Assembly (NCBI RefSeq): GCF_002930645.1
Contig: NZ_PSNW01000003.1
Location: forward strand, 124,001 to 188,000
Direction: 5' to 3'
Length of the DNA stretch: 64,000 bases
Source: Solimonas fluminis
Lineage (GTDB): Bacteria > Pseudomonadota > Gammaproteobacteria > Nevskiales > Nevskiaceae
This document shows, piece after piece, positions 28,917-43,222 of the stretch. Position 1 is the stretch's first letter; every line of letters begins with the position of its first letter. Made by a program: the position numbers and the translations under genes. Under the pieces are notes generated by a model, which ran no database searches, was not told the DNA's origin, and saw only the letters and a program-made list of their open reading frames with translations.

Positions 28917-29873
28917 TTAAAGGCGAGGTTTCTGTGCGTTCGTCCCGTTTGATGGCTCGGCTAACACCCTGTTTCTTCCAGACTGCTTCGCAGCGTAAAG
29001 GCTCCTGTCTGCGCTTTGCATCAGTACGTCGGGGCTCTCGCCGAATCGAGGATAAGCAACTGCGATGCCGATACTGACAGTGACTACATCCGAACAGTCT
29101 GATCCGCCATGTGGGATCATCGCCGACTCGACGGCACTCCGAAGGCCTTCGGAAATATCCCTCAAAGCGTCCAGGCTAGCCCCCGGAATCATGCAGACGA
29201 ACTCCTCGCCTCCATATCGTGCAATCAGATCGCGAGGGCGCCGTAGCAGGCCTCGGAGCTTCTGGGCGACGGTCTTAAGACACGTATCGCCGGCCTGATG
29301 ACCGTATTGGTCATTGAAGCGCTTGAAGTAGTCCACGTCGATCATGGCCAGGCCAAGTGACTCTCCGGATCGAGAGCAGACGCGCCACTCCAAGTCCAGA
29401 GCATCATCGAAGCATCTCCGATTCGCAACTCCAGTCAGGCCATCGATAAGCGCCATGCGCCTCAGCAGGTCGGCTTGCCATTTGAGCAAGAGATGAGTGC
29501 GAACACGGGCCCGGACAACAGCCGGGTGGATCGGCTTGGCAATGAAATCCACCGCACCGACTTCCAATCCCAGGGCCTCCTGCTCAGGAGAGGTGTGTCC
29601 GGTCACAAAAAGCACGGGAATATTCTTGGTCACCTCACCGCTCTTGATCCGTCGACAAACCTCGATGCCGTCAATATCGGGCATTTCGATATCGAGTAAC
29701 ACAAGATCTGGCCGTTCACGCGCACAGATCTCCAGCGCCTGGAGTCCGTTGGTCGTCATGAATATCTCGTAGTCCACGCTAAGAGCTTCATGCAGTACCC
29801 GAATATTGATGGGCTGATCATCGACAATTAGCAAGCGAAACCGATGGGAGGCATCTGGAGTCAGATCTCGCAT
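28917..29873 (-). CDS. Response regulator diguanylate cyclase (REC-GGDEF)
   Basis: This 318-residue protein makes cyclic di-GMP. It has a receiver domain (about 12-130) with phospho-acceptor Asp61 in LVLLDIEMPDIDG and a GGDEF domain (about 140-305) with active-site GGEEF (221-225). The product-inhibition I-site RxxD is present as RPRD (212-215). The start overlaps the stop of the histidine kinase by one base (TAATG), so the kinase-cyclase pair is coupled and the kinase is the likely phosphodonor. Codon use and GC are unlike the flanking genes. Confidence 0.94.
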   Translation of the reverse strand: MRDLTPDASHRFRLLIVDDQPINIRVLHEALSVDYEIFMTTNGLQALEICARERPDLVLLDIEMPDIDGIEVCRRIKSGEVTKNIPVLFVTGHTSPEQEALGLEVGAVDFIAKPIHPAVVRARVRTHLLLKWQADLLRRMALIDGLTGVANRRCFDDALDLEWRVCSRSGESLGLAMIDVDYFKRFNDQYGHQAGDTCLKTVAQKLRGLLRRPRDLIARYGGEEFVCMIPGASLDALRDISEGLRSAVESAMIPHGGSDCSDVVTVSIGIAVAYPRFGESPDVLMQSADRSLYAAKQSGRNRVLAEPSNGTNAQKPRL

Positions 29874-32800
29874 TACTCATCCCCTCCGAGATCGATCTTT
29901 CGGCATGCCTCTAAAGCCCCGGCGAAATCGAGCTTGTCCGCGAATGTCCTTAACTCCCGAGCGGCATGAGAATCAAGCTTCTCGATCGCGGGGATAACTA
30001 GATCCAGCAACGCCAGCGCCCGCGTGTTGTTCTGGGCCAACAAACCCATGAGCTCGATCAGGTTGGATCTCAACATGTCGTCAGAGACGCGAGTCGGAAC
30101 CACCGCTTTCGAGTCAGGCGACAGTCGGTCGGCTTCGCGCTGAAGCTCAGTCACAGCGCGAGCGAGAGCCCCTTCCAGACCCATGAGGTCCGGATTGAAC
30201 ACCGCTTGGTCTCCAGCCTCCTTGATCTGCAACTCAAGCATCGCCGCACTATCGGCCAAACCCTCGGCGCCTAGCGTCCCGGCAACGCCCTTAAGGGCAT
30301 GCAAGATCCGGCCGGCTCCGAGCTTGTCTCCTGCCAGCAATGAAGCTCGCAATTCGGGCGCAACTGAACCATGGTTGACTCCAAAAGCCTTGGCCTGGCG
30401 AGCAAACAAGTCTGCTTTGCCGCCCAGGCGGGCAATCGCTGCGGGGAAGTTGAACTCTGCTTTCGGTGACAACTGGAAACGGGCTGGAAGAGACCCGGGG
30501 ACCCCATCTCCGCGCAGATGTAGACGCAGAACTCTTACTAGTTCATCGATGTGGAAAGGCTTCCCAACATGGTCATTCATACCGGCAGCCAAGCAGGCTT
30601 CCCGATCCTGGGGCATTGCATTTGCTGTCATCGCGATAATAGGTAAGCGTCCGCGGGCAGAATATTCTCGAATCCTCCGGGTTGCTTCGTATCCATCCAT
30701 GCCCGGCATTTGGATATCCATGAGCACCACGTCAAAGGGCGGAGTGCCGTTCCGGACTGCGGCCACACCTGCCTCGCCGTCATTGGCGATCGTGACGGTA
30801 GCTCCCTCAGAAACCAGGAGGTCGTGCGCGATCTGCTGGTTGGTCGTATTGTCCTCGACCACGAGGACGCGGGCGCCATCAAGCCTGCGCTCGGACACTA
30901 CCATCGCCCGTTGGGCCCAAAGCGTACCGTGCCGGGCGCGGGCGTCCGCCACTGCGTCCAGAATCATGGATGCGGTTATCGGCTTGACCAGAAAGGCATC
31001 GACCAGAGACGGTGCCTGCTCCAGCTTCTCGCCAAGTGCACCTCGACCGTGTGCGGTAGCCATGATGATCAGGGCCGCCTTGCTAGGCTGTGGGCGAGAC
31101 CTGATGCGCTCGCATATTTCCCATCCACTCATATCAGGCATCTGCCAATCGATAAGAAGCACGTCATGCTCAATCCCGCTGATCGATCCCGTCTCCAAAA
31201 GCGCAAGTGCCTCCTTCCCGTTGGAGGCCATCTCAACACGCCAACCAAGCGATTCGGCATATCCGCGCAGAACCATGCGTGCCATTGGGTTGTCATCGAC
31301 CAGAAGAACACGCAAATCCCTCAGGCTGACACCCCCATTGCTCGAGGTCAGATTAGCCGGACAGGTGTCTGCGAGTTCAATCTCCAGCGAGAACCAGAAA
31401 CGGCTTCCTTTTCCCATTGTACTTTCGACACGTAGATCGCCTCCCATCAGGGCCACCAAACGTCGGCTGATTGCCAAGCCAAGGCCGGTCCCCCCGTAGC
31501 GGCGGCTCGTAGACGCCTCGGCCTGTTCGAAGCCACGGAATATCTTTCCCATCTGCTCAGGAGCGATTCCAATGCCGGTGTCGGTGATGAAGAAATCGAG
31601 GACTGATACACTCCCACGACGCTCTCGCTCATGCACCCCGACTACAACCTCACCACGCTCGGTGAACTTGATCGCGTTTCCGGCCAGATTGAGAAGCACC
31701 TGCTGAAGTCGTAGTTTGTCTCCCACAAGCGACGAGGACACATTGGGATCGATATCAAAGAGTATCTCTACATCCTTGGCTCCCAGCATCTCGGATAGAA
31801 CAGCGCCCGTCTGACGCAGCAGTTCATCCAGCTTGAACAGCTCCCGCTCCACCTGCATTTTGCCGGCTTCGATTTTGGAGAAGTCCAGGATGTCGTTGAT
31901 GAGCGCGAGCATTGCACGCGCCGCAGCCTCGGCCTTGTCCGTGTAGTCGGCTTGCAACCTCGTCATTGGTGTTCGTTGCAGTAGCTGAAGCATACCAATC
32001 ACGGCATTCATCGGCGTCCGTATCTCGTGGCTCATGTTGGCCAAGAAGAGACTCTTGGCCTGTGTGGCAGCCTCAACCTCCCGATTCCGCTGTTCGAGTA
32101 TGCGGTTGGTCGCCTCGAGCATTTCCTGCGCCTTTTTCAGCTCCGTTATATCGGTGACCAGAACATAGAAGCCCTTTACCGTTGCACCATCCATGTCCGG
32201 AATATAGTGCGCCCATGTATGACCATGGCTACCGTCTGCTCGCTTCAACCTACGTTCGAACTTCTGAGCCTCTCCCTTCAGGGCACCCCGAATGAGGGGC
32301 TCATTGCGGTGGAATAATTCTTCTCCCAGCAGATCTCTGATATGAATGCCGATCATCTGCTCCTTGGCTCTCCCAAACCACGACAAGTAGGAGGCATTAG
32401 CGAAGCGGCAGTGCAGTTCGGAATCCCAATATCCGATCATCCCGGGGATGCTGTCCGTTACCTCGTTAAGGAAGCGCTCTCTTTCCCGAAGTGTTCGTTC
32501 AAGTTCGCGCCTCTCCGTGATATCGACCACCATGCCCAGGAACCCGAATAGCTCCCCATCGTCCCGCCTTAGTGCGCTTACAGAGAGCCAGACCGGCACC
32601 CGCCCGCCATCTTTTCGCACATAGGTCCACTCGTTGGCATCAACCGCCCCGAGCCGGGCCTTTGCGATGAAGGTTTCGAACCCGACGTCTACCGGATAAC
32701 CGAGTTCCAGGCTCAGGGATTCCGCACGAACCGCGACCTCGCCCGGATCATGGATGATGGCCGGTGTAGCCTTGCTAATAACCTCTGCCGCCGCGTAACC

Positions 32801-34753
32801 CAGAAGTCGTTCCGCCGCCGGGTTGAACACCTTGATTGTTCCATCAACCTCCGTGGCGATGATGGCGAATCCGGCGTTGCTGAGGATGGCGCCCTGCAGG
32901 GCAAGGACCTCGCGCAGTTCCTGGGTGCGAGCGACAACTTGTTGCTCCAGCGTAGCGTTCAGTGTCCTGAGCGCCTCCTCGGCTTGCTTTCGGTGCTCGA
33001 TGTCAGTGTTGCTACCGAACCACCGAACGACCGCTCCACTGACTGGATCGAGAAGAGGCACAGCCCTCGTATCGAACCAGCGATAGATGCCATCATGTCG
33101 GCGGATGCGGAACTCGACGCTGAAGATGCCGCGGCTTTCGACCGCAGCCTGCCAGCGCTCCATAAGCTGCGGGCGATCATCGGGATGAACCTGCTCCAGC
33201 CAGCCCGAGCCCAATTGCTCGGCCTCCGGAACTCCGGTATACCGGACCCACTGCTCGCTCAGGAAGTCGCAGGGGCCATCGCCTTGGCAGGTCCAGACCA
33301 ATTGTGGCATCGAGTTGGCCAGTTCGCGCCAGCGGGACTCACTCGCTTGCAGATGCGCCAGCGTGGCTAACCGCTCAGTGACGTCCGTTACCGAAGCTAC
33401 AACCAACTCTTGGCGGCCCAGCGTCAAGGGGCTCAGGCTGACCTCCACCGGAAACCCATGTCCGTCGAAATGGCGCGCCGCCAGTTGTCGATTCGGGGCC
33501 ATAGGCCGCGCCAATCGGTCATACCTCCTGCGATGGGCCACATGCGCGTCGCGACTGTTTTCGGGCAATAGCAGGTCGACGGACTTTCCAGTGAGAGCGT
33601 CCAGTGAGTAGCCGAACAACGTGAGTGCCTGGCGGTTGGCTTCCAATATCACGCCGGTTTGATCGACCACCAGGATCGCTTGTGGCGCAGCGTCGATGAC
33701 CCCCTTGGTCAAGGCAAGTTGATCAGCCAGCGCCCTCCGTTGGCGTAATCGGAACCGGTAGACCAGAATTCCCAGTGCGACGAGCAGCAGATACAACGTC
33801 AGTGATATCAAGACCGCGAGCGGTTTTGGAACCACAGAGGTTTGCTGTTTCAGGGAAGGCTTGGAGGTCAATACGGCTTGCCAACGGCGTCCGTACACAT
33901 CGAATTCACGGGTATTCTGGATAAATTCTGCGTCGATAGTGGCCGACGATGTGGAATAGAAGCTAGATGCTTCCGCCCCGGGGGTTACGTCGCTGAGGGA
34001 CACGGCCAATCCAAAATCTTGCGCAACCAAGTCGGCCAGAATTTCGTCGATGATCAGTGGCGCGTAGCTCCAACCGATCGTAGCCTCGAATCGTTCCGCT
34101 TCGGTGCGCAAGGGCGCGCCTGGCCGATAGACCGGAAGCAGCAGGAGAAAGCCGTTCGCTTCCTTGCTTTGTGCCTGCACCAGGGGAATCGGGCCAGTGA
34201 GTGTGGCTTGGCCGCTGAGCATTGCCCTACGTGCTGCAGCGAGACGCACAGGGTCGGACGCGATATCCAGACCGACGGCCCGACGGTTTATCTCCTCGGG
34301 TTCGATGTACTGGATCACGTACCGATCGCTGCTATTCGGCCCCAGCGTCCGGATGCTGAAGTCGGTGCGGCCTTCAGCGCGTGCCTGCTCCAGGAATGCA
34401 TTCTCTGAGTCGCGCGTAACCCGACGTATGAATCCGAAACCGCGGGCACCTGGAAACTCCCGACTCGCATCCCTGGTTGAGATGTAGTCGCGAAAGCGTG
34501 CGAGAGTTAGGCCGCCGTCAGAGTTGGCAACGACAGCGGCACCACGAGCTCCACGCACACCGTACTCGTACTTTCGCATGCGGTCGTCAAGTTGCCGCAC
34601 AAACTGTTTTTCAGCGCGGTCGAATGCATCCTGCAGACGTGTCCGGCTCGAAGCATTAACCATCAAGACGGAAGCAAGAATAACAACTGCCCCCCCAGCG
34701 GCAACGAGCGCCACAGCTGTAGTTCGCGGCCGTATGACTCCGGGTTTAGTCAT
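29873..34753 (-). CDS. CHASE-PAS hybrid sensor histidine kinase with two receivers and Hpt
   Basis: This 1626-residue membrane phosphorelay kinase has these domains in order: TM1 (about 13-32), a periplasmic CHASE domain (about 80-250), TM2 (about 310-332), four PAS domains (about 345-460, 470-590, 615-750, 760-875), HisKA with His909 (ANMSHEIRTPMN), HATPase (NAIKFTERG, DTGIGIAP, GGTGLGLAISRRL), REC1 (LIDWQMPDMSG), REC2 (VLMDIQMPGMDG) and a C-terminal Hpt with LHALKGVAGTLGA (His near 1485). The ligand is unknown; CHASE domains bind small molecules outside the cytoplasm. The sequence is lower in GC than the surroundings, which suggests transfer. Confidence 0.95.
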   Translation of the reverse strand: MTKPGVIRPRTTAVALVAAGGAVVILASVLMVNASSRTRLQDAFDRAEKQFVRQLDDRMRKYEYGVRGARGAAVVANSDGGLTLARFRDYISTRDASREFPGARGFGFIRRVTRDSENAFLEQARAEGRTDFSIRTLGPNSSDRYVIQYIEPEEINRRAVGLDIASDPVRLAAARRAMLSGQATLTGPIPLVQAQSKEANGFLLLLPVYRPGAPLRTEAERFEATIGWSYAPLIIDEILADLVAQDFGLAVSLSDVTPGAEASSFYSTSSATIDAEFIQNTREFDVYGRRWQAVLTSKPSLKQQTSVVPKPLAVLISLTLYLLLVALGILVYRFRLRQRRALADQLALTKGVIDAAPQAILVVDQTGVILEANRQALTLFGYSLDALTGKSVDLLLPENSRDAHVAHRRRYDRLARPMAPNRQLAARHFDGHGFPVEVSLSPLTLGRQELVVASVTDVTERLATLAHLQASESRWRELANSMPQLVWTCQGDGPCDFLSEQWVRYTGVPEAEQLGSGWLEQVHPDDRPQLMERWQAAVESRGIFSVEFRIRRHDGIYRWFDTRAVPLLDPVSGAVVRWFGSNTDIEHRKQAEEALRTLNATLEQQVVARTQELREVLALQGAILSNAGFAIIATEVDGTIKVFNPAAERLLGYAAAEVISKATPAIIHDPGEVAVRAESLSLELGYPVDVGFETFIAKARLGAVDANEWTYVRKDGGRVPVWLSVSALRRDDGELFGFLGMVVDITERRELERTLRERERFLNEVTDSIPGMIGYWDSELHCRFANASYLSWFGRAKEQMIGIHIRDLLGEELFHRNEPLIRGALKGEAQKFERRLKRADGSHGHTWAHYIPDMDGATVKGFYVLVTDITELKKAQEMLEATNRILEQRNREVEAATQAKSLFLANMSHEIRTPMNAVIGMLQLLQRTPMTRLQADYTDKAEAAARAMLALINDILDFSKIEAGKMQVERELFKLDELLRQTGAVLSEMLGAKDVEILFDIDPNVSSSLVGDKLRLQQVLLNLAGNAIKFTERGEVVVGVHERERRGSVSVLDFFITDTGIGIAPEQMGKIFRGFEQAEASTSRRYGGTGLGLAISRRLVALMGGDLRVESTMGKGSRFWFSLEIELADTCPANLTSSNGGVSLRDLRVLLVDDNPMARMVLRGYAESLGWRVEMASNGKEALALLETGSISGIEHDVLLIDWQMPDMSGWEICERIRSRPQPSKAALIIMATAHGRGALGEKLEQAPSLVDAFLVKPITASMILDAVADARARHGTLWAQRAMVVSERRLDGARVLVVEDNTTNQQIAHDLLVSEGATVTIANDGEAGVAAVRNGTPPFDVVLMDIQMPGMDGYEATRRIREYSARGRLPIIAMTANAMPQDREACLAAGMNDHVGKPFHIDELVRVLRLHLRGDGVPGSLPARFQLSPKAEFNFPAAIARLGGKADLFARQAKAFGVNHGSVAPELRASLLAGDKLGAGRILHALKGVAGTLGAEGLADSAAMLELQIKEAGDQAVFNPDLMGLEGALARAVTELQREADRLSPDSKAVVPTRVSDDMLRSNLIELMGLLAQNNTRALALLDLVIPAIEKLDSHAARELRTFADKLDFAGALEACRKIDLGGDE

Positions 34754-37676: not shown

Positions 37677-38315
37677 CTACAGCGTGCCGCTGTCCATGCC
37701 CAGGCGGATGGCATAGCGCATCAGCGCGTTGGTGCCGTAGAGCCCCAGCGACTGCATCATGCGGGCGCGGTGGGTCTCCACGGTCTTGATGCTGACGCCC
37801 ATCAGGGAGGCGATCTCCTTGGTGGAGCGGCCTCGCGCGATCAGCTGCAGCACCTGCTTCTGGCGCGGCGTCAGGGCCACGTGGTCTTCGGCGCGCTGCG
37901 AGGCACTGCGGCGTTCGAAGGCCAGGTGGGCGATGCCGGGGCTGAGGTAGACCTGCCCTTTCTGCACGGCCTGCAGCGCCAGGGCCAGTTCCTTGGGGTC
38001 GGCGTTCTTGCCGAGGAAGCCGGCGGCGCCGAGCTTGAGCGCGGTACGCACCGAGTGGCTGTCGAGCTGGGCGGAGATCATCAGCACGGCGATCTCGGGA
38101 TAGTGGCGGCGCAGCTGAGAGAGCAGCTCCAGGCCGCTCATGCGGCCCAGGGCCAGTTCGCTGACGATCACGTCCGGGCGCAGGCGGGCGGCCAGTTCCA
38201 GCAGTTGCTGGCCGTCGTCCGCTTCGCCGATCACCTCGGCGCCGGCGTGCTGCTCCAGCAGCCGCGCCAGGCCGGCACGGACCAGCGTCTGCGGTTCGGC
38301 GAGTATCAGCCGCAT
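37677..38315 (-). CDS. NarL/FixJ-type regulator with atypical receiver (Asp to Glu)
   Basis: The 212-residue regulator has a receiver domain (1-120) and a GerE HTH (about 145-205; LTPRQKQVLQLIARGRSTKEIASLMGVS read in two parts, then IKTVETHRARMM). The phospho-acceptor position is Glu53 (DVIVSELALG) instead of Asp, and the acidic pair near the N-terminus is Glu7-Pro8 (LILAEPQTL) instead of Asp-Asp. The receiver may therefore be permanently active-like or controlled otherwise. SD GGAGGAG precedes the ATG. It borders the flagellar PilZ-like gene, so a motility role is possible. Confidence 0.88.
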   Translation of the reverse strand: MRLILAEPQTLVRAGLARLLEQHAGAEVIGEADDGQQLLELAARLRPDVIVSELALGRMSGLELLSQLRRHYPEIAVLMISAQLDSHSVRTALKLGAAGFLGKNADPKELALALQAVQKGQVYLSPGIAHLAFERRSASQRAEDHVALTPRQKQVLQLIARGRSTKEIASLMGVSIKTVETHRARMMQSLGLYGTNALMRYAIRLGMDSGTL

Positions 38316-38368: not shown

Positions 38369-38917
38369 CTACGCGCTCCGGGCGGCAGGCGGTCGGGAGA
38401 CGGCGACTGAACGGCGGTGGTGCAGGAAGACGTGCTTCTCCAGGGCGGCCTCCAGGGCCTCGCCCAGGGGCTCGAAGCGGGCCTCGCCCACGGCGCCGGC
38501 GTTGGTCGCCCGGGCCGGCCAGGTGAAGGGCTCCGGCATGCAGGGGTGCAGCATGACCGACAGCAGGCCGTAACCCTCCAGGGCGCTGCCGCCCTCCCAG
38601 CTCAGGCCGGCGGAGGTCAGCCGGACCGGCCGCGGCGGTGCCGAGGGGTCCATGCGCCGCAGGAACTGGCCGAACAGCACCAGCAGCATGTCCAGCTTCT
38701 GGTGGATGCGTTCCAGCTCCTGCTCCACGCGCTCGTCGTTCTCGCCGCGCGGGGAGTGGCGCTCCTCCAGCGCCGCGACCACGGCCAGCACGCGCAGGTT
38801 GTTCTCCTGCAACTGCTGCAACTGCTCGGGCGGCGGCGGCGTGGCCAGCGGCACCCAGCTCAGCGGCAGGGTGTCGCGGTAGCCCAGCTGCTGGTCGAGG
38901 GAGGTCGGATCGTTCAT
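38369..38917 (-). CDS. PilZ-like domain protein next to fliS
   Basis: The 182-residue protein has an N-terminal helical, probably coiled-coil region (LQQLQENNLRVLAVVAALEE to ELERIHQKLDMLLVLFGQFL, about 30-90). A C-terminal beta region follows, resembling atypical PilZ domains (RPVRLTSAGLSWEGG, LLSVMLHP, then EKHVFLHHRR). The RxxxR arginines that grip cyclic di-GMP in classical PilZ are not evident, so binding is doubtful. Position directly downstream of fliS (67 bp) suggests a flagellar-motor or chaperone-linked role. Confidence 0.65.
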   Translation of the reverse strand: MNDPTSLDQQLGYRDTLPLSWVPLATPPPPEQLQQLQENNLRVLAVVAALEERHSPRGENDERVEQELERIHQKLDMLLVLFGQFLRRMDPSAPPRPVRLTSAGLSWEGGSALEGYGLLSVMLHPCMPEPFTWPARATNAGAVGEARFEPLGEALEAALEKHVFLHHRRSVAVSRPPAARSA

Positions 38918-38983
38918 GGACGGAACTCGGTCGGGATCACCGGGACCCTGCAGTCCCTGTGCCATACGGCCTTGCCGAGCGCC

Positions 38984-39391
38984 CTAGCGCAGCCGCGGAC
39001 CCGGGCGGCCTACCTCGTCCCAGGCGGCCTTGATGGTGCGCAGCAGGCCCGCCACTTCGTCCACGCCCTCGGCGTCGTTGTCGAGGTTGGCGCGCAGCAG
39101 GCGGCGGCCCATGTAGTCGTAGAGCGCATCGAGGTTGCGGGCGATCTCGCCGCCAGCCTGGTGATCCAGGCACAGGCGCAGATGCTCGATGATGGCGGAG
39201 GCGGAGGCGATCAGTGGCGCCTTGCGCAGCAGGTCGCCGGCCAGGATGCAGCCGCGTGCCGCGTTGAGCCGCTCCAGCGCGCCCGACAGCAGCATGGCGA
39301 TCAGCTGCTGCGGCGGAATGTCGGCGCTGGCCGCGTCGATCACCGCGGTATTCTGGTACTGCCGGAGAGCGCCGGATTGCGGGGCGGGCAT
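38984..39391 (-). CDS. fliS: Flagellin export chaperone FliS
   Basis: FliS binds the flagellin C-terminus and keeps it unpolymerised until export. The 135-residue, all-helical protein shows the family pattern [28 protein letters not shown] (in two parts) and [26 protein letters not shown] lies 8 bp before the ATG, and a sigma-28 site is centred about 43 bp upstream. Unlike most genomes, fliS is not directly behind fliD; a sugE cassette lies between them. Confidence 0.93.
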
Positions 39392-39504: not shown

Positions 39505-39570
39505 GACACGGGGACGACCCCGGCGAATCGTCGGATTACCCCGGGGACGACCCCGCATCGCGGAGCGTCA
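39505..39570 (+). ncRNA. Guanidine-II (mini-ykkC) riboswitch
   Basis: Two identical hairpins CGGGGACGACCCCG at 39509-39522 and 39542-39555 each have a four-G/four-C stem and the ACGA loop that defines guanidine-II riboswitches; the 19-base linker is within the known range. GGAG, the ribosome binding site of sugE, lies 6 bases after the second hairpin. In this class guanidinium dimerises the loops and frees translation of the exporter. Confidence 0.92.
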
Positions 39571-39572
39571 TC

Positions 39573-39887
39573 ATGTCCTGGCTGCTGCTGGTCCTGGCGG
39601 GCCTGTTCGAGATCGGATGGGCCATCGGCCTGAAGTACACGGAGGGCTTCACCCGCCCCCTTCCCACTGTCCTCACCGTGGGCGCCATGGCGATCAGCCT
39701 GGGCCTGCTGGGCCTGGCGATGCGCTCGCTGCCGGTGGGCACGGCCTACGCGGTCTGGGTGGGCATCGGCGCCGCCGGCACCGTGCTGCTGGGCATCCTG
39801 CTGCTGAACGAGCCGGCCACCATCGCCCGCATGGTCAGCGTGCTGCTGATCCTGGCCGGCGTGATCGGGCTGAAGCTGGCGCACTAG
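39573..39887 (+). CDS. gdx: Guanidinium exporter SugE/Gdx (SMR family)
   Basis: This 104-residue SMR protein has four membrane helices. The proton/substrate Glu13 lies in [18 protein letters not shown], the Gdx-type signature rather than EmrE, and TM3 shows [17 protein letters not shown]. It exports guanidinium in exchange for protons. The guanidine-II riboswitch directly upstream supports the function independently of the protein sequence. It is the only plus-strand gene within the fliC-to-PilZ block and splits fliD from fliS. Confidence 0.93.
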
Positions 39888-40137: not shown

Positions 40138-41469
40138 CTAGGAATTGTTGGCCGCCAGCGCCGCGAGCTGCTGGGTGAGGTAGTTGCTGGTCGTGCTCAT
40201 GCGCGTCATCAGCGTGTCCAGCGCGGTGAACTGCGCGGTGTAGCGCGCCTGCACCTGGGTCATGCGCCGGTCCAGCGCGTCCTTCTGGCTGCTGATGTCC
40301 TTGAGGCGGGCCTGCAGGGTGTCGGTCTGCGCGTCGATGCCGGCGCCCTCGGCCAGCATGGCGTCGATGTTCTTGCTGATCTTGCTGGCGTAGCCGTCCT
40401 CGCCGCCGAACATCCGCGCGATGCTGCTGGCGTCCTTGGCGATGGCCTCGCCGAGCTTGGCGCTGTCCACCGTCAGCAAGCCGTCGGACCCGGTCTTGAT
40501 GCCCAGCTGCGACAGGTAGCTGACCGAGCCGCCCGGCGCGGAGCCGCCCATGATGGCGCGCAGCTCGTTGGCGGCCTGGCGCGCGGTGCTGTCGCCGGTC
40601 AGCGTGGATGCGGTCTTGGTCGCCGGATCGTACTTGGTCAGGTTGTTGATCGTGGTCAACACCTGGTTGTACTTGGTGACGAAGTCCTGCACCGCCTTGG
40701 AAGCGGCGCTGTTGTCGGTGGTCAGCGCCAGCGTGCCGGTGGTGCCGGGCTCTGCCTTGACCAGGTTCAGCGTCACCCCGTCCAGCGCGCCGGTCACGGT
40801 GTTGCTGGCGCTGTAGACGTCGAAACCTTCCACCTTCACGTGCGCGTCGACCGCTGCCTGCGTCTGGCTCAGCGAGATCAGGGGCGAGCTGACGCTCACC
40901 GCCTGGCTGGCGCCGGTCTGGTTGCCGGTGAGCAGCAGGCGCACGCCGCCCGACTCGGTCACCAGCGAGGCGGTGACGCCCGGATTGTCCGTCGCGTTGT
41001 TGATGGCGTCGCGCAGGGCGCCCAGGCTGTTGCCGGTGCTGCCCAGCGTGACCTTGAAGCTCTCGGAGCCCACCGTGATATCCACATCGCCGGCACCGAG
41101 GATGGTATCGGCGCTGGCCATGGGCGCGGACACCAGCTTGGTCGACTGCGCCAGGGACACCACCTCCACCGCGAAGCTGCCGCGCGCGGCACCCGCCGCG
41201 GCCGTGGCGGTGAACAGGTCCTCGCGGGAGGACTTCACGGCCGGCGTGGCCACCGCGCCGCCGCCGACCAGGGTCTTGGCCGTGGTCTGCAGGTTGGACA
41301 GGGCGGACTTCAGCACGCCCATCGCGGAGAGGCGCGTCTGGGCCTTGGACTGCGCGGCATTGAGCCGGGCGTCCGGAGCCGCGCGTTCCGCAGCGACGAG
41401 CTGCGATACCAGGCTGACCACGTCGAGCCCGGAGCTGAAGCTGGAAGCATTGATGGAACTGGTCGCCAT
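40138..41469 (-). CDS. fliD: Flagellar filament cap FliD
   Basis: FliD caps the growing filament and folds flagellin subunits. The 443-residue protein has the N-terminal FliD motif (GLDVVSLVSQLVAAERAAPDARLN in two parts), a Ser/Thr/Gly-rich middle domain, and C-terminal coiled coil with DRRMTQVQARYTAQFTALDTLM. It lies 32 bp behind flaG and is likely cotranscribed with it. The length is in the normal 430-480 range. Confidence 0.94.
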   Translation of the reverse strand: MATSSINASSFSSGLDVVSLVSQLVAAERAAPDARLNAAQSKAQTRLSAMGVLKSALSNLQTTAKTLVGGGAVATPAVKSSREDLFTATAAAGAARGSFAVEVVSLAQSTKLVSAPMASADTILGAGDVDITVGSESFKVTLGSTGNSLGALRDAINNATDNPGVTASLVTESGGVRLLLTGNQTGASQAVSVSSPLISLSQTQAAVDAHVKVEGFDVYSASNTVTGALDGVTLNLVKAEPGTTGTLALTTDNSAASKAVQDFVTKYNQVLTTINNLTKYDPATKTASTLTGDSTARQAANELRAIMGGSAPGGSVSYLSQLGIKTGSDGLLTVDSAKLGEAIAKDASSIARMFGGEDGYASKISKNIDAMLAEGAGIDAQTDTLQARLKDISSQKDALDRRMTQVQARYTAQFTALDTLMTRMSTTSNYLTQQLAALAANNS

Positions 41470-41967: not shown

Positions 41968-43122
41968 TTAGCCGCGCAGCAGGCTGAGGACGTTGTTCGG
42001 CGCCGAGTTGGCCTGGGCCAGCATCGCCGTACCGGCCTGCTGCAGGATCTGCGCGCGGGTCAGGTTGGCCGTTTCCGCCGCGAAGTCCGTGTCCTGGATG
42101 CGGCTGCGGGCAGCCGACAGGTTCTCGGAGGTCGTGGCGAGGTTGGCGACCACCGACTCGAAGCGGTTCTGCACCGCACCGATGGTGGCGCGAGCCGAGT
42201 TGACCTGCGACAGAGCGCTGTCCACCTGCTGGATGGCGAGCGAGGCGCCGGCGTAGGAGGCCACGCTCAGGCCAGTGAGGCCCGTGGTGGTGCTGGCGGT
42301 GGCGTCGCCGTCGGCGCCGGTCACGTCGAAGCCGGTCAGGCTGCCGTCGTCGGTGCCGGTGGCGGCGATGTTGCCGGCCGAGGTCAGCACGATGCGGTTG
42401 GTGGCGCTGTCGTAGGCCGCGTTCACGCCGGTGGTGCTGGCGTAGTTGTTGATCGCGTCCACGACCTGGCCCACGCGCTGCTGGGCGGAGCCCGCGGCGC
42501 CGATGCCGGCGCCCACGTCGGTGCCGTTGATCACCAGGGCGCCAGCGCCGACCGCGGTCAGCGTGTCGATGCTGGTGACGGCGCTGGACTGGCCGGTGGC
42601 GGCGGTGACCGAACCCAGGGCGGCGACGTTGGAGTCCACCAGGCTGGAGATGCTGATGGTCTCGCCGGCGTTGGCGCCGACCTGGAACACGGCGGAGCTG
42701 AAGCTGCCGTCGAGCAGCTTGACGCCGTTGAACGAGGTCTGGTTGGCGACGCGGTCGATTTCGCTCAGCAGCTGCGAGGCTTCGGCCTGCAGGGCGGCGC
42801 GGTCGGTCGAGGAGTTGGTGGCGTTGGCGGACTGCACGGCCAGCTCGCGGATGCGCTGCAGGTTGTTGGTGACCTGGCCCAGCGCGCCTTCGGCGGTCTG
42901 CGCCAGCGAGATGCCGTCATTGGCATTGCGCTGCGCCTGGTTCAGGCCCTTGATCTGGCTGCTGAAGCGCTCGCTGATCGCGAGGCCGGCGGCGTCGTCC
43001 TTGGCGCTGTTGATGCGCAGGCCCGAGGACAGGCGCTGGATCGAAGTGGAAAGGGAAGACTGTGACGAGTTCAGATTGCGCTGGGCATTCAGAGACATCA
43101 CGTTGGTGTTGATACCTTGCAT
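41968..43122 (-). CDS. fliC: Flagellin FliC
   Basis: The filament protein, 384 residues, has conserved D0/D1 ends: [20 protein letters not shown] (1-20), [20 protein letters not shown] after it, and the C-terminal half ending in [14 protein letters not shown]. The central domain is short and rich in Ala, Gly, Thr and Val. I chose ATG at 43122 because AGGAG lies 7 bp upstream and the conserved N-terminus starts there; an upstream in-frame start at 43215 would overlap the sigma-28 promoter. Confidence 0.95.
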
Positions 43123-43195
43123 GGCTTTCTCCTGGGTGGATGTTGCCGGTGACGTTGTTCCGGCCCTTCGCAGCTCATTGCCGCTACTGAGGCCC

Positions 43196-43222
43196 TTAAC
43201 GGCGTCGTCTGACAAACCTTTA
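43196..43222 (-). promoter_or_regulatory. Sigma-28 (FliA) promoter of fliC
   Basis: On the minus strand TAAA, exactly 15 bases, then GCCGTTAA (consensus GCCGATAA, one mismatch). It lies about 75 bp upstream of the flagellin ATG. Confidence 0.85.

Follow-up and report, generated by a model that had tools for sequence, protein, structure and literature searches.

In the bacterium Solimonas fluminis, a NarL-type regulator encoded beside flagellar genes is best explained as the Solimonas orthologue of FsnR whose receiver has become a pseudo-receiver, that is, a domain recognised as a receiver in which key phosphotransfer residues are missing (PMC12632262), and whose control of the flagellum would be independent of phosphorylation. 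We give this reading a probability of about 0.68. The gene and its critical residues are placed as follows in the window, the whole stretch of 64,000 nucleotides that was analysed:

37677-38315, minus strand: NarL/LuxR-type regulator with receiver (REC) and GerE helix-turn-helix (HTH), FsnR orthologue with a predicted pseudo-receiver (translation, Pfam, trees, model and BLASTP)
38292-38297, minus strand: Glu7-Pro8, an Asp-Asp metal-binding pair in the compared orthologues outside the clade described below
38157-38159, minus strand: codon GAA, Glu53, the phospho-acceptor position (translation and BLASTP)
38073-38075, minus strand: Ser81, the active-site Ser/Thr, retained
38007-38009, minus strand: Lys103, the active-site lysine, retained
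37845-37847, minus strand: Gln157, the position of the c-di-GMP-binding Arg157 of Stenotrophomonas maltophilia FsnR

The product has 212 amino acids, contains the stretch DVIVSELALG, and has the two domains of a NarL/LuxR-type regulator by both Pfam and fold, with a receiver (Response_reg, PF00072, 6.6e-23) and a GerE/LuxR helix-turn-helix (PF00196, 1.1e-15) that both exceed their cut-offs; among the best 25 NCBIfam families listed, none scored above its cut-off. In an AlphaFold model built on an alignment of 37 relatives (mean pLDDT 87.4, pTM 0.61) the receiver fold is seen, and residue 53 is the last of strand 3 (E49-53). The best structural matches by Foldseek and profile search were LiaR, VraR and RcsB, which have an identical two-domain fold and whose receivers can be phosphorylated, unlike the pseudo-receiver predicted here. 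The earlier note had read a Glu where the phospho-acceptor Asp is expected and a Glu-Pro in place of the N-terminal acidic pair, and both observations hold: translation, the model position and a gapless BLASTP alignment in which Glu53 pairs with the phospho-Asp of the S. maltophilia orthologue agree on the former, and Glu-Pro-Gln stands at positions 7-9, with Pro in place of Asp8, the second metal ligand, and Gln in place of the His next to it. The protein is recognised as a receiver and lacks the acceptor Asp and the acidic pair, in agreement with the definition of a pseudo-receiver; the conserved Ser/Thr and Lys are retained as Ser81 and Lys103. In the same genome, all seven paralogue loci fetched from 26 other matches have Asp at the position equivalent to 53. 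Receivers of the VpsT type bind c-di-GMP through a W[FLMT][TS]R motif, which was not found in the window regulator, a protein without any Trp.

At the equivalent place in S. maltophilia lies a gene (L158, 6039-6677, minus strand) whose product aligns without gaps to 204 residues of the window protein at 45% identity, and which we take to be FsnR, its numbering reproducing the published Asp53, Arg153, Arg157 and Arg158; residue 154 is Glu here and Gln in the strain of PMC9600515. The assignment of the window gene as an orthologue comes from synteny with fliS-tPilZ and/or rpoN-fleQ together with clustering in the trees. FsnR activates flagellar genes; RavS phosphorylates it at Asp53, and c-di-GMP inhibits it via Arg157 (PMC9600515). 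Both proteins consist of a receiver and a LuxR-type HTH and have fliS and tPilZ upstream, the flagellar role being demonstrated for FsnR only. They differ in that FsnR has Asp-Asp-His, Asp53 and Arg157 where the window regulator has Glu-Pro-Gln, Glu53 and Gln157, so that the target of RavS and the c-di-GMP-binding residue are both missing, and in that, of the two, only FsnR is followed by rpoN and fleQ. A coupling between the loss of Arg157 and Glu53 was considered and rejected, for within the clade Arg157 occurs with Glu (five) and Asp (four) alike; outside it, just 13 of 24 rows have Arg157.

Upstream of the regulator, all on its own strand, are the following genes:

38369-38965, minus strand: tPilZ (atypical PilZ) protein, Pfam PF16823, 8.7e-18
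38984-39391, minus strand: fliS, flagellin chaperone, Pfam PF02561, 5.3e-33
40138-41469, minus strand: fliD, filament cap, Pfam PF07195/PF02465
41502-41888, minus strand: flaG, Pfam PF03646, 4.9e-18
41968-43215, minus strand: flagellin gene (fliC), Pfam PF00669/PF00700

The tPilZ gene is only 53 bp away, an adjacency retained in most relatives, and the order fliS-tPilZ-regulator recurs at loci of Solimonas, Sinimarinibacterium, Fontimonas, Nevskia, Stagnimonas, Stenotrophomonas and Xanthomonas, tPilZ not being detected at the loci of some relatives (for example L060 and L116). In two genera (g4 and g7) the regulator adjoins rpoN instead, with FleQ nearby and fliS elsewhere in the genome. At two loci (L124 and L147) the regulator is followed by a single-domain receiver and then by FleQ, as confirmed by Pfam; this receiver, which resembles VemR, has the normal Asp-Asp and Asp. 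The FleQ of the window genome lies on another contig and is 68% identical to that of L124. Among 58 genomes of the family, the orthologue was found in 43 of the 47 that have FliS versus one of the 11 that do not (Fisher p = 2e-7) and, conversely, FliS was present in 43/44 carriers versus 4/14 non-carriers. One of the four FliS-positive exceptions (G001), for which the best match in the family search was another locus, so that the gene was overlooked there, has a very diverged regulator after tPilZ (L174, 5772-6590, plus strand), with Phe-Pro at the positions of the acidic pair. The flagellar association suggested in the earlier note is strong, through synteny either with genes of the filament or with the rpoN-fleQ pair, and through co-occurrence with FliS, and on the same basis we infer that the window regulator activates flagellar genes. 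The sigma-54 promoter pattern gave four matches in the window versus 6.2 expected. An insertion on the opposite strand between fliD and fliS (39506-39887, plus strand), made up of a Guanidine-II riboswitch (Rfam, 40.8 bits) and, after it, a gene of the small multidrug resistance (SMR) type, separates fliS-tPilZ-regulator from fliC-flaG-fliD; the SMR gene was matched at the loci of all four genomes of the genus that were examined, and the riboswitch was present in the window and the three relatives of the genus that were tested and absent from the Fontimonas locus L041.

The 150 proteins extracted comprised 112 distinct ones, and in a first tree of these 31 rows with Glu53 and eight with Asp53 formed one clade of 39 (SH-aLRT 99), and the remaining 73 rows all had Asp53. 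A second tree of 68 chosen rows (39 from the clade, 24 from outside and five outgroup), from which the active-site columns were omitted, recovered the identical clade (bootstrap/SH-aLRT 100/99). Asp-Asp-His with Asp53 was present in all 24 rows chosen from outside the clade for the second tree, a count that leaves out L137 and other Asp rows of the first tree, versus Asp-His in 0/39 rows of the clade. Position 8 of the clade is Pro in 22 rows, Ser in nine, Glu in five, and Thr, Gln and Gly in one each. L137, from another family of the order (G068), is in the first tree and absent from the second, and L174 is in neither; L137 belongs to the same flagellar locus, and its active-site positions read Glu-Ile-Tyr, Asp, Val and Cys, which looks like an independent degeneration of the receiver. 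A canonical NarL-type paralogue (L149-L157), with Asp-Asp-His and Asp53 and about 34-37% identity to the window protein, was present in a number of the genomes that carry the regulator.

As for the history of these changes, a two-state model on the maximum-likelihood tree placed the loss of Asp-His at the base of the clade with probability 1.0 and Glu53 there with 0.999, and a model without return to Asp fitted worse (lnL -25.8 vs -20.1). When scored over 40 bootstrap topologies that carried no branch lengths, the probability of an ancestral Glu53 had a median of 0.92 and was above 0.5 in 21/40 only. An old Glu53 in the ancestor of the clade, with later returns to Asp, is accordingly favoured but not proven. 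Three sequences of the Stagnimonas type have D-E-L, Asp53, Ser/Thr and Lys, a complete acidic set; judging from these residues, such proteins could be phosphorylatable and the loss of the active site may be partly reversible.

The degenerate active site might be taken as the mark of a decaying gene, or even of a meaningless sequencing error, an explanation that we regard as very improbable. Glu53 was found in all four genomes of the genus examined, encoded by GAA in the window copy and by the synonymous GAG in the other three, and in the four within-genus pairs computed dN/dS ranged from 0.08 to 0.12 in the receiver and from 0 to 0.013 in the linker plus HTH. Both parts are under purifying selection within the genus, and these observations argue that Glu53 is held by selection and is not a lapse; on the same evidence, a strain-specific change or sequencing error was ruled out. 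Close relatives with Asp throughout would have pointed to such a change or error according to the earlier note, and this is not what was seen: within the family, too, Glu53 occurs in 32 of 44 carrier genomes and Asp53 in 12, four of the latter (G009 and G032-G034) being canonical and outside the clade. The closest named relative found is Solimonas sp. SE-A11 (97% identity). Position 53 is moreover acidic in 39/39 rows of the clade, which free decay hardly explains, since receivers that lack the aspartate generally have Glu, the commonest replacement, in 26% of cases, with Asn, Ser, Gly and Ala next in frequency (PMC4395418). The losses are also concentrated: the 24 outside rows share 36 conserved receiver positions, nine of which were lost in the clade, 7/10 near active-site residues versus 2/26 elsewhere (Fisher p = 0.0004, with "near" defined as four short stretches after the list had been seen, and with positions that share one phylogeny and are not independent).

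A more serious alternative, although still an unlikely one, is that Glu53 is a true phosphomimetic that contacts Ser81 and Lys103 as a phospho-Asp would and keeps the regulator permanently phospho-like. Its frequency as a replacement and the partial activation of some regulators by Glu (PMC4395418, PMC12632262) speak for it, as does the retention in the clade of Lys103 (35/39) and Ser/Thr81 (32/39), but position 81 is Ala in 6/39 rows, and five of the eight clade members with Asp53 are without an acidic second ligand. In FsnR itself, D53E did not act as a phosphorylation mimic, with swimming not above that of D53A, both in a sisP deletion (PMC9600515), a comparison made with Arg157 intact, in which inhibition by c-di-GMP may have masked an effect. 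ChxR, which has a natural Glu and binds DNA constitutively, keeps this binding when the Glu is replaced (PMC4395418). Hence the constitutive activity through Glu mimicry put forward in the earlier note is unproven, while its other suggestion, sensing by other means, fits the pseudo-receiver. The interchange of Asp and Glu without an acidic second partner suggests instead that the carboxylate at position 53 matters structurally.

Persisting phosphorylation of the receiver, whether weak or at a different residue, in what would remain an ordinary two-component regulator seems to us improbable, more so than mimicry. The acidic residue 53, Ser81 and Lys103 are retained and the acidic set of the Stagnimonas type is complete, but residue 8, a direct metal ligand, is non-acidic in 34/39 rows and the His that follows is kept in 4/39. 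Furthermore, the closest kinase gene identified within the annotated part of the window (29873-34753, minus strand) encodes a hybrid histidine kinase of 1626 aa, with CHASE, several PAS, HisKA, HATPase, two receivers of its own and an Hpt. With regard to the kinase of FsnR, S. maltophilia was found to encode RavS and RavR beside a gene fitting SisP, with His503 and RavR Asp496 in agreement with PMC9600515. At a threshold of E <= 1e-35, RavS matches occurred in 3/85 genomes of the order and in 8/13 control genomes with Asp53 (three full-length and five partial C-terminal, with none in the other five), figures that are not strictly comparable because at most 13 candidates per genome were searched in the order and all of them in the controls. 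Two of the three matches in the order (G006 and G007, both with Glu53) cover the kinase domain only, at 40-42% identity, and lie directly beside the canonical paralogue of the L149-L157 type, and the third (G033, an Asp53 genome) covers residues 215-687 at 35%. Among the Glu53 genomes of the order, none gave a match covering most of RavS, and the window genome had no match at this threshold among the 13 of 47 candidates that were scored. The absence of RavS was rejected as decisive evidence, several canonical genomes being also without it, and its distribution is compatible with kinase independence without proving it.

Under the preferred reading, a pseudo-receiver on an FsnR orthologue, the regulator would receive no phosphoryl group from a kinase, as its active-site residues lead us to infer. 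The carboxylate at position 53 and Lys103, probably joined in a salt bridge, would keep the receiver fixed in a single functional conformation, and the unphosphorylated regulator would bind flagellar promoters as a monomer or dimer. How much of the regulator is present, or else a partner or ligand, would determine its output in place of Asp phosphorylation, and the product of the adjacent tPilZ gene is an obvious candidate for such a partner. Whether the fixed state is the "on" state is, even granting the rest of the explanation, a guess with about even odds.

Pseudo-receivers are already well known (PMC12632262, PMC4395418). The window regulator resembles receivers without the aspartate in having Glu for the phospho-Asp, Glu as the first acidic residue, a lost second one and a retained Lys, each of which is common among them (PMC4395418, PMC12632262). 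From pseudo-receivers like that of ChxR it differs in its NarL/LuxR-type output and its probable flagellar role. There is also a likeness to FleQ, a flagellar transcription regulator with a degenerate, unphosphorylated receiver whose gene lies close to that of the regulator at L124, at L147 and in S. maltophilia; FleQ, however, is a sigma-54 enhancer-binding AAA+ protein, whereas the window regulator is NarL-type. FleQ is itself counted among the pseudo-receiver structures (PMC12632262). The novelty lies in a branch of pseudo-receivers within a group of orthologues of which the studied member is under kinase control. A search by title for literature on Solimonas response regulators, Solimonas flagella and FsnR pseudo-receivers, in which subscription journals were mostly not covered, found no paper on this branch and none pairing Solimonas with a response regulator.

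Control by RavS and by c-di-GMP, as described for FsnR, should not be transferred to these relatives by annotation. A wider reading, which we consider doubtful, is that a whole flagellated gammaproteobacterial clade has swapped kinase control of an FsnR-type activator for another input, with the carboxylate at position 53 as a structural latch in which Glu and Asp are freely exchangeable, and with tPilZ bringing c-di-GMP or another signal in trans in place of direct binding at Arg157. According to a review of 2025 (PMC12632262), the question of how pseudo-receivers are switched is still open. Here, orthologues at one locus comprise the kinase-controlled FsnR and natural forms with Glu53/Pro8, Asp53/Ser8, Asp53/Glu8 and Glu53/Glu8, and with this natural series of residues the roles of the Glu and of the lost metal ligand become directly testable.
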